Shown: piece after piece, positions 21,158 through 60,575 of the stretch
Layout of the letters: every line of letters starts with the position of its first letter
Numbering within the stretch: the stretch's first letter is position 1
DNA from: Acanthamoeba lenticulata
Taxonomy: Eukaryota; Discosea; Longamoebia; Acanthamoebidae
Direction of reading: 5' to 3'
NCBI GenBank assembly: GCA_002179805.1
Contig: NAVB01000132.1
Coordinates: 17,065 to 81,064 of the forward strand
DNA: 64,000 nt
Made by a program: the position numbers and the translations under genes
The notes under the pieces: generated by a model
Database searches by the model: none
Told to the model about the DNA's origin: nothing
Seen by the model: the letters and a program-made list of their open reading frames with translations, nothing else

Positions 21158-21201
21158 TTTACTTTACATTACATATTTCGTCAGCCATTATAAGTAAGGC
21201 T

Positions 21202-21274
21202 GGGGGTGTAGCTCACATGGTAGAGCGCTCCGTTCGCATCGGAGAGGCAGCGGGATCGATACGCGTCACATCCA
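21202..21274 (+). tRNA. tRNA-Ala(CGC), with two stem mismatches
   Basis: A 73-base cloverleaf: acceptor GGGGGTG/CACATCC, D arm GCTC...GAGC, anticodon stem CTCCG/CGGAG around loop TTCGCAT (anticodon CGC), T loop ATCGATA, discriminator A. The alanine identity pair G3-T70 is present. Two non-pairs stand out: G4 opposite A69, and G52 opposite G62 in the T stem. A T-run (TTTT) about ten bases downstream and a longer one at 21293-21301 are pol III terminators. No intron. Confidence 0.8.
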
Positions 21275-21379
21275 GGATTATCTTTTATCAAAAATTTTTT
21301 TTCTGTCACAGATTAATCTCGTAAGTGTTTTTGTCTATTAAAGGTTAATATGAAGCTAGGATCAGTGACTTCGTAAGGT

Positions 21380-21452
21380 GGCCGGTTAGCTTAGTTGGTA
21401 GAGCGTGGTGCTAATAACGCCAAGGTCGTGGGTTCGATCCCCACACTGGCCA
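21380..21452 (+). tRNA. tRNA-Ile(AAT)
   Basis: A well-formed 73-base cloverleaf: acceptor GGCCGGT/ACTGGCC, D arm GCTT...GAGC with TTAGTTGGTA, anticodon loop CTAATAA (anticodon AAT, read as IAU after editing), T arm GTGGG-TTCGATC-CCCAC, discriminator A. An eight-T terminator begins within five bases of the 3' end. It has no intron. Confidence 0.95.
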
Positions 21453-21902
21453 TTCTTTTTTTTAATTGTTTAGCTTAAAATCTTATCTTTTTTTAATGAG
21501 CGAACGGTCTCACCGGTTACATGTGCCCATACTCTTATTGGTTCGTAGTTACCCATTAAATCTGAAACAATCATCATCGGCGAGATGAATAGATGAAGAA
21601 CCGCCACGCTCTGGGTCTGGTTCGGTTGTTACAAATGTCATACAATATGTGTGTGGGTGTTTCGAATAATAATGGTAGTGTGGTGCAGGGCGGCAGGCTG
21701 ATGAGCGTTCCACACGCGCAGTCACTTGTCGCCCCTTTCGTTCTTGCTTGGTTGTGCTCTTGCCGCGCTTCTAGCTGCGTGCGATCTCGTTTTTTTGTCG
21801 GCTAGTTGGTTGACAGCCTCACGGTGTCGGGGCAAAGTTCTGCTCGTACACCCTGTGTAGCAATAAATGCGCGGAGTGTCAGGCCGATCATCTCCGCGAG
21901 GC
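21453..21902. other. Intergenic region between tRNA-Ile and the cyclin gene
   Basis: About 450 bases with no supported gene. It starts with the tRNA-Ile terminator and ends at the cyclin 3' end. Scattered ATGA and CTGA motifs do not form a credible box C/D snoRNA. Confidence 0.4.
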
Positions 21903-24199: not shown

Positions 24200-24424
24200 A
24201 TGAGCGAGCAAGAAACGTCTGCACCTGCTCCCGAAGCTCCTGTGTCTGCGCCACGGCCCGTGCTGAAGAAACCTGTGCGAGGTAGGCGCCCCAGTGCACT
24301 GGACGCGATCATGGGAACCGCTGGAGTTTCTGCCCAGGCCGCCAACACCGAGTTCGTTGATGGAGTCAGTCGGAATGGCACAGTCAGATTCCATGGCAAG
24401 GCTGTGGCAGACGAGAGTTCTTAG
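24200..24424 (+). CDS. Small hypothetical protein, 74 residues
   Basis: A single-exon frame from 24200 to 24424. The first 25 residues are rich in Ala, Pro, Glu and Ser (MSEQETSAPAPEAPVSAPRP), followed by a basic patch (VLKKPVRGRRPS) and a short segment with Gly and Val (NGTVRFHGKAVADESS). The ATG follows AAACG, and third positions are GC-rich like neighbouring exons, both of which support coding. I do not recognise it; it looks largely disordered. It lies 209 bases upstream of the DGCR8-like gene on the same strand. Confidence 0.5.
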   Translation: MSEQETSAPAPEAPVSAPRPVLKKPVRGRRPSALDAIMGTAGVSAQAANTEFVDGVSRNGTVRFHGKAVADESS

Positions 24425-24633: not shown

Positions 24634-27219
24634 GATGGAGACGTCGGAGGGGGTGGCCTCTACTCGCAAGCGCAAACGGGAGGGTGAACAACAAGATCTT
24701 AGTGGAGGGGACAATGAGCACGATCGAAGGACCATGTGTTGGTACGGTTTTAGTTGCCACCGCAGGATTGATCCTCTGCATGAGCGACGATTTCGCCATC
24801 CAGCAACGGCCGAAGACGAAGCCGCTTGGTTGGCTGCGTGTGCAGAAGAGGAGGCACGCTTGAAAGCTGTCTATGAGGCCGAGGAACGGGCGCACCCGCT
24901 TCCGGATGGTTGGCAAAGGGTTGTGCACGACTCGGGTCTTGTGTGCTACGTGCACCAGCCGTCGAGCGCCGTCAGCTGGACTCGCCCCTATGTGGTCCCT
25001 TCCGTTGACCAGGCGTCTGCACTCCAGGCCGTTGCTGCACATGAGATACCCCTCTTCCCCTTCGCGCTCATCCTCCAGGTGGCCGAAGCGTCAGCGCGGA
25101 GTGAGGCCAACCAGCGGTACTTGCATTGCCTTGCCTCTCCCCTCCCCACAGCAGCGGATGTTGACGTCGACTGCTTGCTTGTCCAAGCACACGGGCCTAC
25201 TTGGCCGAGCGAGAGGAGACGCGCAAGTTCCTGGAGGAGAAGCGCGAAGCGACGACCGCAGGGCGTAGCGCGTACGAACCACTCGGCCGAAAGGAAAGGG
25301 AGGCGGACAAGGAAAGCAGTGGCAGCGCCGCCTCTCCTTCTCCTGCTCCTGTTCCTTGTGGCGACAAGTCGTCTTCGCGTGCTGCAGCAGACCCCGCGTC
25401 CACAAAAGGCGCTGCCTGTGCGTTAAGCGTCTCCCCTTCTCCTGTCGCTCCGGTTCATGATGGTACCGGTCATCACGTGATGAGCCATTCACCTACTGGA
25501 CGCGCGCAGCAGCCGCTACGCCGTTGGAGAAGGCTATTCTCACTGTCCTCAGCCACGCTGTCAAGCACAAGAAGCTGGGCTCGCCAGACGATGCTACCTC
25601 GGCGCCTGGTTCTTTCTCACTTGCCTAGCCTTGCCGTTTGTGTTTCGTGGGCATCGTCGAGTGATGACTCACTTTCGTCTTGCGTCGCACCCAGCGGCGC
25701 TCGTGAAGATGGACAAGCGTGCGAGCACGAAGCCAAAGAAGGTCGCGACCTTCTCGGCCAAGGCGTCTGCCCTTAAGACACCAATCACTCACCTCCAGGA
25801 GTACTGTCTCCATGTGCTCAAGACCCTCCCCCACTACGTCACCACTACACAAGGTGCGGCTGCACTGCATTTGCAATTTTGTTGCTGCTCTGCGTCGTGT
25901 CCCATTTTTGTTCCCTACCCCGTTTGGGGTCCCCTTGGTAAACTGCGTGCTTTTTGACGGCGTGCACGCAGAGGACCCAACGCGGCCCTACGTCACGACC
26001 GTTCTCGTCTCGGGGAAGGAGTATGGCCGCGGTGCCTACCAAAACAAGAAGCGTTCCAAGGTTGCACCACCGCGCGTTCCCGAGCCAAGACAATCAGCCC
26101 CTTTGCTTCGCTTTTTCATTTTTTTCGTTTTCGTTTTCGTTTTTCGTTTTCATTTTTCATTTTAGGGCTCCCTGGCCGGCAACAAAACTCAAACAAAAAC
26201 CGTGTATTGCTGGTGGACAGCACCTGGCGGCCGAGGCTGCCCTCCGCCTGCTTTGTCCGGAGTACGCGGCGAGCGCGCCTCCGATCGAATCGTCGGATCG
26301 CAAGGAAGAATGCTTAGCCGCACCCGAGGCCCCGGTTCCCGCAACTCCCAGCCCTTTTCTTCTTTCATCGGTTAACTCCGCTATTAACATCGGCTCGCCA
26401 GGATCCCTACCAGTTGGCGGTTGATGACCATGCTGTGCTGTCGCTGGCTAACACCAAGAGTCCCACGCAAGTGTTACAGGAGTACAGCAATAGGTGCCCC
26501 CGCCTCCGCCCCTTGTGCCATCTTTCAGGCCCATGGCTCAACCGAGTGGGCACTCGGTGGCAGAGTGCACGCCCTTCTCGAATTCCGCGCGGAGGAGGTG
26601 TCCGACCACGAGGGTGGCATCGAGGAGGAAAGTCGCCTCGAGAAACATCGACAACCGGGAGACCTGAACCCTGCACAGAGAGTCGAAGTGCGACTGGAGG
26701 GCCTGCGTGCCTCGGTGAGACCACCCCGCCCCTTTGTCCCTGTGGCGCCTGTGTTATTTGGCTAATTGCATGGGCTGGCAGGCCGTCGCAAAGAACAAGC
26801 GAGAGGCCAAGCAGCGCGCGGCCCAGCTCATGCTGCAGCAGATCTACCCCGAGGCGCGCAGCTGGGGCGAGCTGCTCGACCTCGAAGCGGCCAACACGAC
26901 TGCCGTACGGCTACCCACTGCCCACAGCCCCCTTGTCGCCAAGTGTGTCAGCAGCGTGCGATGGGCTGACACGGCCATCGCTGGCCCGTCGGTGCAGGCA
27001 CAAGCGGGTGCCACGCCGGTGGCTGCCCACCACCGTCGCCACGACGGGGAGACCAGCGAGACAGACAACAATGAGACCAACGACGTCGGGCCCAACCTGC
27101 GCCTCTTGGCGCAGCTCAAGGAGGAGATGCGCAAGCGAATTGCGGCCACGCCTTCCTCCTTGCCCGCTACAGACCCGACAGCGCAGCAGCCGTCATTTTG
27201 TTCTTCGCTCCGCTATTGA
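24634..27219 (+). CDS. DGCR8/Pasha-like double-stranded-RNA-binding protein with PBZ-like finger
   Basis: Start METSEGVAST at 24634. Residues 35-56 (CWYGFSCHRRIDPLHERRFR then HP) match the PBZ zinc finger pattern, with C35, C41, H49 and H55. Residues 88-119 (HPLPDGWQRVVHDSGLVCYV, SSAVSWTRPYV) match the DGCR8 WW domain, including DGW, HxSG and SWTRPY. A charged region follows (AYLAEREETRKFLEEKREAT). First dsRBD: TPITHLQEYCLHVLKTLPHY, PYVTTVLVSGKEYGRGAYQN, KKRSK then HLAAEAALRLLCPEY. Second: SPTQ(VLQEYSNR), GRVHALLEFRAEE, VAKNKREAKQRAAQLMLQQI, YPEARSWGELLDLEA. The C-terminal helix PNLRLLAQLKEEMRKRIA matches the DGCR8 tail. DGCR8 binds primary microRNA hairpins with Drosha in the nucleus. The heme-ligand IPC motif of animal DGCR8 is IPL here. 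One junction near 26471-26528 is unresolved. Confidence 0.85.
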
Positions 27220-58608: not shown

Positions 58609-58815
58609 CGATTGAGGCGTGAGACGAGAAGGCTAAGTCTTGCACTTGAAACAACAAATGGTAAGAGTGTCGTCTTCGCTACGCGAAATACAACTCCAGC
58701 GGAATCGATTTCCTTAACTGCATAATTCACCGATTGTAGCGTAGCAATGCAACGTAATTGTGCTTTTTCGACCAATCGGCAACCCAGAGGAAATGGGCCG
58801 ACTGCGCGCTCACGC

Positions 58816-60575
58816 TTAGGTGGGCCGCCCGGCCAGGCGGACAGCACGGCCGTTGTGTCCGCCAGCGGCGAGCGCCTCGAGGGAGGAGAAGAGGAGGTCC
58901 CAGACGAGCTCGCCATAATGGGCCGCCTGGACGGCCACGAGCAAAACCAGCGCGAGGAGGACCACGTACTGGACCAGCAGCCACAGGCCGCTCGAGCCGG
59001 CGCTCGTACCGACCGACTTGTTCTCCTCCTCTTCCTCCTGCTCCGTTACGGCGATGGCGCGCTTCGTCGTCTGTGCGCTGCGCTCGCGCTTCAGGGCCAC
59101 CAGGCTGCGCTCGGCCTCTTCCAGCTCGGCCTCCACCCGCTCGGCCTCCTCGCTCTGCCGCACACGCGCCTCCTCGAGCTCTTCCATCATGCGCTGTCCC
59201 AAAACAACATCCGTTGTGAGCAAGCAAGCCAAACAGTGTGACGGCACATGGGCCTTGCGACCCGCGCGTGCGCACCCGTCGCTGCTCGATCTCCTGTTGC
59301 AGTCGCATGCTCGGGTCCTGATTCTGCCGCTTGAGCAGCTCTGTGATCGTGCTTTGTAGTTCCCTGTGCGGAAAGTGCGCGCGCGCGCGGATGTGAGAAT
59401 GCGTGATCGTCCTGGACGTCCAGGGCGCATCGTACAGACGCCTGGCGGTGAGGCGCTTGACGTCGGCGAGGAGGCCCGCGACTGCGGCCTGCTCCGCATC
59501 GACCCCTCGCTCACCGACGACGTGGTCATCGACGTCGTGGCTCTGATTCAGGTCGAAGCTGGAAAGGTCAAAGTCCGAATCGACGGACTCCGAGCTCCAC
59601 AACGACCGCGCTCGGCCACCAGTCGGCGTTGTCTCGGCCTCGCTGGTTTCGTCGTCCTGAGTGAGGCTCTTGATGAGGTTGCGGTTGGCGCTAAACCGCT
59701 TCTCGCCTGGCGGGGCGATGGGCGTGTAGGGCGCCGCCGGGATGGCCGCCAAGTGGCTGGTGGCGGTGGTTGCCGCGGCCTCGCCCGGCTGGGCGCTGGG
59801 CGTATAGGGCGCCGCCGGGGTGGCCGCCAAATCGCTGGTGGTGGCGGTGGTTGCCGCAGAGCCGCTCGCCATCACTGGTGACGAAAGCAACGGCATGAGG
59901 AAGGCGTTGGACGACGACGATGAGGCTGAAGAAGAAAATGAAAATGGTGATGTAAATGAAGCTGGAGGTGAGAAAGACAAAGGAGGAGGGGAGGGTCGGC
60001 GCCGGCGCGAGGGTGAATTATGCGGTGAAGTCGGGAACGAGGAGGACGAGATAGAAGGCAGCGGCGAGGCGGCCTCTGGCACTTTGAGAGACGGGTGCGT
60101 CGTGAATGGGGCGTCCGGCGAGGACGAAGCGCGCGACCTTGGCGAGGGCTCGGTGGCCGCGCTGGGTGCGCCGCCGTCATCTTCGCTGGCGGTGTCTTCT
60201 AGAGACGGGAGACGGAAGGCAAAAGGGAGCGGAGTCGCGCCTACATCGGGAACAAAGGCAGGAGTCGCGAGCGGTGTCGCGGTGTCAAGAGCAGGAAAGG
60301 AGAAGGGGCCGCCAGAGCTCCCCGGCGTGGCGGTAGCAGCCGTCGAGAAAGAAAGGGCAAAAGGCGTGCTGTCGTAGGGAGTGGCGGGAAAGTAAGATGA
60401 AACTCGAGGTGGCGTGCTTGCATCCTCCCCCTGTGTAACATTGCACGATGACAACGTAGCCGAGCGAAAAATGAGAATCAAAATGATCATATTTTCTTCA
60501 ATAATTAAATAAAAATCTCGAACATACCGTCAACGCCCTAAAGGCTGCCTTGGTGTCTGTGTTGTCTGGCTCCAT
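58816..60575 (-). CDS. Ser/Pro-rich coiled-coil protein with C-terminal membrane anchor
   Basis: A short first exon (MEPDNTDTKAAFRALT, start 60575) splices to a long exon of low complexity rich in Ser, Pro, Ala and Thr (GEDASTPPRVSSYFPATPYD onwards). Inside it two copies of an about 26-residue unit follow each other (SDLAATPAAPYTPSAQPGE and SHLAAIPAAPYTPIAPPGE). Then come KRFSANRNLIKSLTQDDET, a helical part (AEQAAVAGLLADVKRLTARR, RELQSTITELLKRQNQDPSM) and a charged coiled coil (MMEELEEARVRQSEEAERVE, AELEEAERSLVALKRERSAQ). A single hydrophobic helix, LWLLVQYVVLLALVLLVAVQ, is followed by about 35 residues to the stop at 58816. This is the layout of a tail-anchored golgin or ER tether. I recognise no family. 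Confidence 0.65.

Follow-up and report, generated by a model that had tools for sequence, protein, structure and literature searches.

We analyzed a 64,000-nucleotide stretch of the Acanthamoeba lenticulata genome (the window, C118:17065-81064, from an assembly of 48.48 Mb in 1825 contigs) in which an initial annotation had reported a DGCR8/Pasha-like protein at 24634..27219. The gene starts with an ATG at 24635, one base later than annotated, and ends where the annotation placed it, with a TGA stop at 27217-27219. It lies on the + strand and comprises nine exons encoding a protein of about 617 aa. All of the motifs quoted in the annotation were present in the sequence, in the order given and on the + strand, and its architecture held up, but it had noticed neither the eight introns that split the gene nor a PBZ zinc finger.

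24635..27219, +: predicted DGCR8/Pasha ortholog gene; frame open across all GT-AG junctions, intron 2 ambiguous
24635-25116, +: exon 1
25188-~25417, +: exon 2 (3' edge approximate)
25510-25608, +: exon 3
25695-25853, +: exon 4
25972-26060, +: exon 5
26221-26334, +: exon 6
26402-26493, +: exon 7
26564-26714, +: exon 8
26782-27219, +: exon 9
24656..24682, +: basic stretch ASTRKRKRE near the N-terminus; position matches KKRK in the relative P0001
24734..24802, +: PBZ (APLF-type CCHH) zinc finger, residues 34-56 (Pfam PF10283, APLF)
24896..24991, +: WW motif of DGCR8 type (PLPDGW...SWTRPY), residues 88-119 (PDB DGCR8 WW)
25040..25078, +: HEIPLFPFALILQ stretch after the WW, nearly identical in P0001
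25775..26265, +: dsRBD1, residues 298-368, spread over three exons (Pfam dsrm; DGCR8 match)
26402..26455, +: DGCR8-type linker between the dsRBDs, DPYQLAVDDHAVLSLANT (DGCR8 ...HISIEDSRVYEL...), from the profile alignment
26456..26856, +: dsRBD2, residues 410-497 (DGCR8 match)
26857..26889, +: W-x-x-LL helix RSWGELLDLEA (DGCR8 KNWGSLL), from the PDB DGCR8 alignment
27088..27144, +: C-terminal helix GPNLRLLAQLKEEMRKRIA (DGCR8 PNLHILSKLQEEMKR), inside the continuous profile alignment

The gene model and its relatives

Homology, splice signals and an uninterrupted reading frame were used to build the gene model. Each of its eight introns is GT-AG, with lengths of 67-160 nt in the version used. Intron 2 is ambiguous, with 18 open models of 565-637 aa that differ only there; we used the 617-aa version. 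A custom spliced aligner guided by P0001 reproduced the model's edges at every intron except intron 2, a check that is only partly independent because P0001 was in view when the edges were placed by eye. For intron 2 the acceptor was that of the model and the donor was different, and the aligner passed over a part of the last exon with low similarity, splitting the alignment there. The alignment scored 1270. With a shuffled guide the score was 62 and on the opposite strand 53, and the difference from the shuffled guide ruled out a chance reading frame. When the assembly was searched with P0001, six matches were obtained, all inside this gene, which is therefore single-copy in the assembly within the reach of that search.

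Searches of 5.8 billion proteins, in which the best 7999 or 8000 candidates by word sharing were scored, identified at least two relatives, both environmental. P0001 (556 aa, 57% identical in the alignment) has the full architecture including the PBZ finger; P0002 (411 aa, 38% identical in the alignment) lacks the PBZ finger and the WW as listed. The best PDB match was DGCR8 for both (5.9e-21 and 3e-12, respectively). No further relative appeared among the candidates scored when the search was repeated with the alignment as query. Given that number of scored candidates, nothing can be read from the lack of animal DGCR8 among the matches.

Other features were seen in the window. Just upstream of the gene, 24200-24424 (+) holds a 74-aa open frame (MSEQETSAPAPEAPV...) that is possibly a separate small gene, and tRNA-Ala(CGC) and tRNA-Ile(AAT) genes lie near each other at 21201-21453 (+). 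A 600-aa open frame at 58730-60529 (-) had no Pfam match at 0.001 and is one of three such frames among the seven that were scanned.

Relationship of the protein to DGCR8

A profile built from the predicted protein, P0001 and P0002 matched DGCR8 in the PDB at 4.4e-29, while the next protein, ADAR, scored 5.6e-7. Profile positions 288-551 aligned with DGCR8 residues 509-746 in an unbroken block running from dsRBD1 through the linker, dsRBD2 and the W-x-x-LL to the C-terminal helix; the WW aligned as a separate stretch. The protein is thus specifically related to DGCR8 (PDB 6v5b, 6lxd), with WW, dsRBD1, linker, dsRBD2, W-x-x-LL and C-terminal helix in identical order. The initial annotation's proposal that the WW, both dsRBDs, the W-x-x-LL and the C-terminal helix line up with DGCR8 is borne out by this collinear match, and the full-length profile match on which its reading depended is significant. 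The C-terminal helix was weak when scored alone (-1.2 bits). Used as a single sequence, the protein matched DGCR8 at 1.1e-21, and the best 6 of the 26 chains listed were DGCR8, counting 4e5r, a chain named MGC78846 that we take to be frog DGCR8. We also searched the 48-Mb assembly with the PDB DGCR8 core, exon by exon and with two candidates scored. Both matches fell in exons of this gene (E 3.5e-6 and 0.0087).

The individual domains gave a similar result. Two dsrm stretches were found by Pfam in the whole protein (1.4e-21), and an NCBIfam scan returned a single RNase III match, below cut-off, over dsRBD1. Against PDB chains, dsRBD1 alone matched DGCR8 at 6.6e-12 and TARBP2 at 1.3e-5. A query of dsRBD2 with the linker and following helix matched three DGCR8 sequences and no other PDB chain at E<=1; the aligned part was the latter half of dsRBD2 together with the helix that follows it. 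Thirteen of 17 linker residues are identical in both P0001 and P0002. KKxxK-type residues, which have an RNA-binding role, are kept in both dsRBDs in the alignment to PDB DGCR8. GPNLRLLAQLKEEMRKRIA resembles PNLHILSKLQEEMKR, which we take to be the Drosha-binding tail of DGCR8, a binding role that comes from animals. The WW matched the PDB DGCR8 WW at 3.2e-7 (3le4) and 7.4e-7 (4e5r), and the best other WW protein was NEDD4L at 2.5e-4. The Pfam WW model scored 14.7 bits on exon 1, below its cut-off of 26.9, and for the whole protein it did not appear among the matches at E<=1.

Like TRBP, Loquacious and HYL1, the amoebal protein has tandem dsRBDs. These proteins, however, gave a poorer match than DGCR8 to dsRBD1 (the TARBP2 value above) and were unlisted for dsRBD2 at E<=1, and they are not known to carry a WW or the C-terminal helix. 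Since both dsRBDs prefer DGCR8, a Dicer partner of TRBP type was rejected.

The predicted protein runs, in order, from the basic stretch, PBZ finger, WW, HEIPLFPFALILQ and a variable middle through TPLEKAILTVLSHAVKHKKLG, a short conserved helix-like stretch ahead of dsRBD1, to dsRBD1, the linker DPYQLAVDDHAVLSLANT, dsRBD2, RSWGELLDLEA, a variable tail and GPNLRLLAQLKEEMRKRIA. The basic stretch ASTRKRKRE is a possible nuclear localisation signal. Animal DGCR8 differs from the amoebal protein in three respects: the latter has the N-terminal PBZ finger, it lacks a Cys in HEIPLFPFALILQ, and its region between the WW and dsRBD1 gave no detectable alignment with human DGCR8 when the three-sequence profile was compared with the PDB. 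A heme-binding dimerisation domain with a Cys ligand is conserved in animal DGCR8, and HEIPLFPFALILQ sits about where we presume the heme-ligand Cys motif to lie; neither the amoebal stretch nor its P0001 counterpart contains a Cys.

The PBZ finger (PF10283) scored 2.4e-5 on the exon 1 piece, over the cut-off, and 1.8e-4 on the whole protein, just under it. It matched APLF at 2.4e-9, and 18 of its 23 residues are identical in P0001. The amoebal finger has the CxYGxxC...PxH...F.HP pattern of the APLF fingers but differs from them in one extra residue and in a His in place of the Tyr after the second Cys. The aromatic residues of PBZ fingers have a role in poly(ADP-ribose) binding. The fusion of such a finger to a DGCR8-type protein, kept in P0001, may indicate a link between ADP-ribosylation and miRNA processing, which is a guess because His occupies an aromatic position of the finger.

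Drosha and other small-RNA genes in the same genome

RNase III matches were found at twelve places in the assembly, on five contigs. The gene on one of these contigs, C20, was spliced with the related protein P0003 as guide.

C20 (L010, C20:1-8000), about 6074-2721, -: predicted Drosha gene

The initial annotation had named a Drosha-type RNase III as something to look for in this genome, and one is present here. In a stitched 661-aa version, the product of C20 matched Drosha in the PDB at 1.5e-66 and DCL4, the next protein, at 5.5e-18; the best five of the 35 chains listed were Drosha. On that comparison, assignment of the gene as a Dicer was rejected. The spliced model has tandem RNase III domains by Pfam, and both contain the RLEFLGD and ADxxEALLG glutamate/aspartate motifs, which have a catalytic role in RNase III enzymes. 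Its C-terminal dsRBD scored 22.8 bits with dsrm, just under the cut-off of 23, and that of P0003 scored 39.4 bits. The alignment with Drosha extends to the YLFDGF and PRFH-FPRF motifs, which score low by themselves. No helicase family was found at E<=1 within the 872 modelled residues, whose N-terminus is incomplete. A PAZ match of 21.6 bits, below the cut-off of 28.8, distinguishes C20 from P0005, a Drosha of the animal clade for which no PAZ was listed at E<=0.01. We infer that this PAZ trace is a sign of descent from Dicer, and the C20 gene may represent a stage between Dicer and the Drosha of animals.

Two further genes appeared Dicer-like by eye in translated frames, one on C452 with helicase-like sequence and one on C1398. 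The C1398 locus (L012) and one on C492 (L013) are near-identical PAZ-like, double RNase III loci of Dicer type, which probably reflect either two haplotypes or a duplication that is recent. The same kind of pairing is seen for a profilin-like gene, on C312 and C1019. C822, the fifth contig, has a single RNase III match. Piwi-domain (Argonaute) matches occurred on three contigs, C249, C27 and C734. The genome thus carries predicted Drosha, Dicer-like and Argonaute genes. A search of the assembly for ERH, by family and by protein and without a positive control, gave no match; ERH is a Microprocessor helper in humans according to an excerpt of PMC10605862.

Drosha-like double RNase III proteins were also seen among environmental sequences (P0013-P0020 and P0006), and their hosts may also carry DGCR8. 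In the oomycete proteins P0022-P0024 we saw by eye FDGF and PRF-like motifs where Drosha has its own. An oomycete DCL2 family is described as PAZ-bearing in an excerpt of PMC4791657.

For a first Drosha tree we used 18 of 33 collected proteins and three genes of the genome itself, leaving out P0009, P0014, P0016, P0018, P0019, P0025-P0031 and P0033-P0035 as near-duplicates, fragments or more distant sequences. In it, P0006 grouped with the Acanthamoeba Drosha (85/96). A second tree, in which P0006, P0032 and the helicase Dicer were dropped as long rows and the spliced C20 model was used, served for an AU test. The animal rows formed a clade (95/99), and an Acanthamoeba group of C20, P0003 and P0004 (99/98) fell outside it. 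A constrained tree that joined the Acanthamoeba group to the six non-sponge rows (P0005 plus five named animals) was 24.7 log units worse (p-AU 0.000835), for a single nesting within the sampled animals that was picked after the first tree had been inspected and with ichthyosporeans absent. Both trees drew warnings about long rows and about atypical residue composition in several rows, including the C20 Drosha. The AU result speaks against a recent gain of Drosha from an animal and would still be compatible with ancient transfer from another holozoan.

A candidate Microprocessor and its age

On these comparisons, the gene is very probably the Acanthamoeba ortholog of DGCR8/Pasha and would form a Microprocessor with the Drosha of the same genome. 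The protein would enter the nucleus and dimerise via its WW-containing region, and the two dsRBDs would grip the stem of hairpin transcripts. The C-terminal helix would then engage both RNase III domains of the C20 Drosha, this enzyme would make the first cut of primary microRNAs, and the Dicers and Argonautes of the same genome would complete the pathway. The N-terminal PBZ finger would probably recruit or regulate the protein through poly(ADP-ribose) or RNA. The gene, its domain order, its specific kinship with DGCR8 and the Argonaute, Dicer-like and Drosha genes of the genome are what the sequence itself shows; dimerisation, complex formation, pri-miRNA cleavage and the role of the PBZ finger are what the likeness to DGCR8 and APLF predicts.

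Among the alternatives, the one with the most in its favor is that the protein is a true DGCR8 ortholog whose main task is not miRNA processing, for example cleavage of rRNA or mRNA hairpins or PBZ-based DNA-damage work. The miRNAs are few for a dedicated machine (excerpts of PMC11014262 report one sequenced from A. castellanii and five from A. lenticulata), the PBZ type of finger occurs in the DNA-repair protein APLF, and an excerpt of a 2026 review cites DGCR8 in UV-damage repair (PMC13315211). Against this, the two dsRBDs are conserved, as is the C-terminal helix, and Drosha is present, so the RNA-cutting parts have been kept. In addition, 11 of 13 genomes from species that fall between the two sequenced yielded orthologs of the Acanthamoeba miRNAs, and the more distant Acanthamoeba yielded none (excerpts of PMC11014262). 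We therefore regard a main task outside miRNA processing as improbable. A generic WW/dsRBD protein that resembles DGCR8 by convergence is barely credible. The WW and the dsRBD are common modules, and the Pfam WW was below cut-off or unlisted, but DGCR8 is the best match for the WW, dsRBD1 and dsRBD2, the linker and tails align as well, and the reverse search led to this gene only; the profile and per-domain matches led us to reject it.

It is also quite unlikely, though less so than convergence, that the gene reached Acanthamoeba by transfer, with an animal or an ichthyosporean as donor, or that it is contaminating DNA. The holders of Drosha and Pasha named in excerpts of PMC8061703 are animals and ichthyosporeans, which would fit a transfer. 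Of the seven long frames scanned in the window, however, four could be assigned to common families (decarboxylase, kinase, hydrolase, WDR36/Utp21-like) and the other three had no match; because frames match common families and the G+C of the window is even at 52-61%, contamination is unlikely. The existence of two relatives as diverged as P0001 and P0002 also argues against transfer, as does the rejection of the single nesting of Drosha inside the sampled animals (p 0.0008).

If the gene is indeed the DGCR8/Pasha ortholog, it differs from those described in being amoebozoan. The amoebozoan origin is supported by profilin: the A. castellanii protein matched the assembly at 91% and 85% identity along its whole length, pointing to Acanthamoeba or very close kin. 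A search of the assembly with 18S primer and universal patterns, run without a positive control, gave no match. Excerpts of the literature place the origin of the Microprocessor in unicellular relatives of animals, the ichthyosporeans (PMC8061703, PMC7765534), describe DGCR8 as seemingly restricted to animals (PMC10605862) and call Drosha-type enzymes animal-only, with Drosha-type genes absent from D. discoideum (PMC4894637). The 2026 review, as excerpted, did not identify DGCR8 in the set of pathogenic free-living amoebae that it covered and suggests that amoebae may use distinct mechanisms; it gives ACA1_291000 of A. castellanii as the best match for both Dicer and Drosha, with 40% identity to Drosha at 2E-78 (PMC13315211). 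A Dicer duplication in Acanthamoeba is inferred in an excerpt of PMC11014262, the main text of which mentions neither DGCR8 nor Pasha. In the open-access journal literature that we searched, titles and abstract openings contained no report of an amoebozoan DGCR8. By its description in an excerpt of PMC4894637, Dictyostelium RbdB is comparable in that it, too, is a dsRNA-binding protein from an amoebozoan and is required for the processing of miRNAs; its partner is the Dicer-like DrnB, unlike the Drosha partner proposed here.

The occurrence of DGCR8 and Drosha genes in an amoeba suggests that the pairing of the two predates animals and the lineages nearest to them. Our data lean toward a Microprocessor retained in Acanthamoeba, with a tie to ADP-ribosylation through the PBZ finger, in which case animal miRNA biogenesis would have begun in single cells long before Holozoa. 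The DGCR8-like gene offers a direct explanation for the miRNAs known in Acanthamoeba, and it allows the question of how old the animal miRNA machinery is to be put to the test in an amoeba used in the laboratory.
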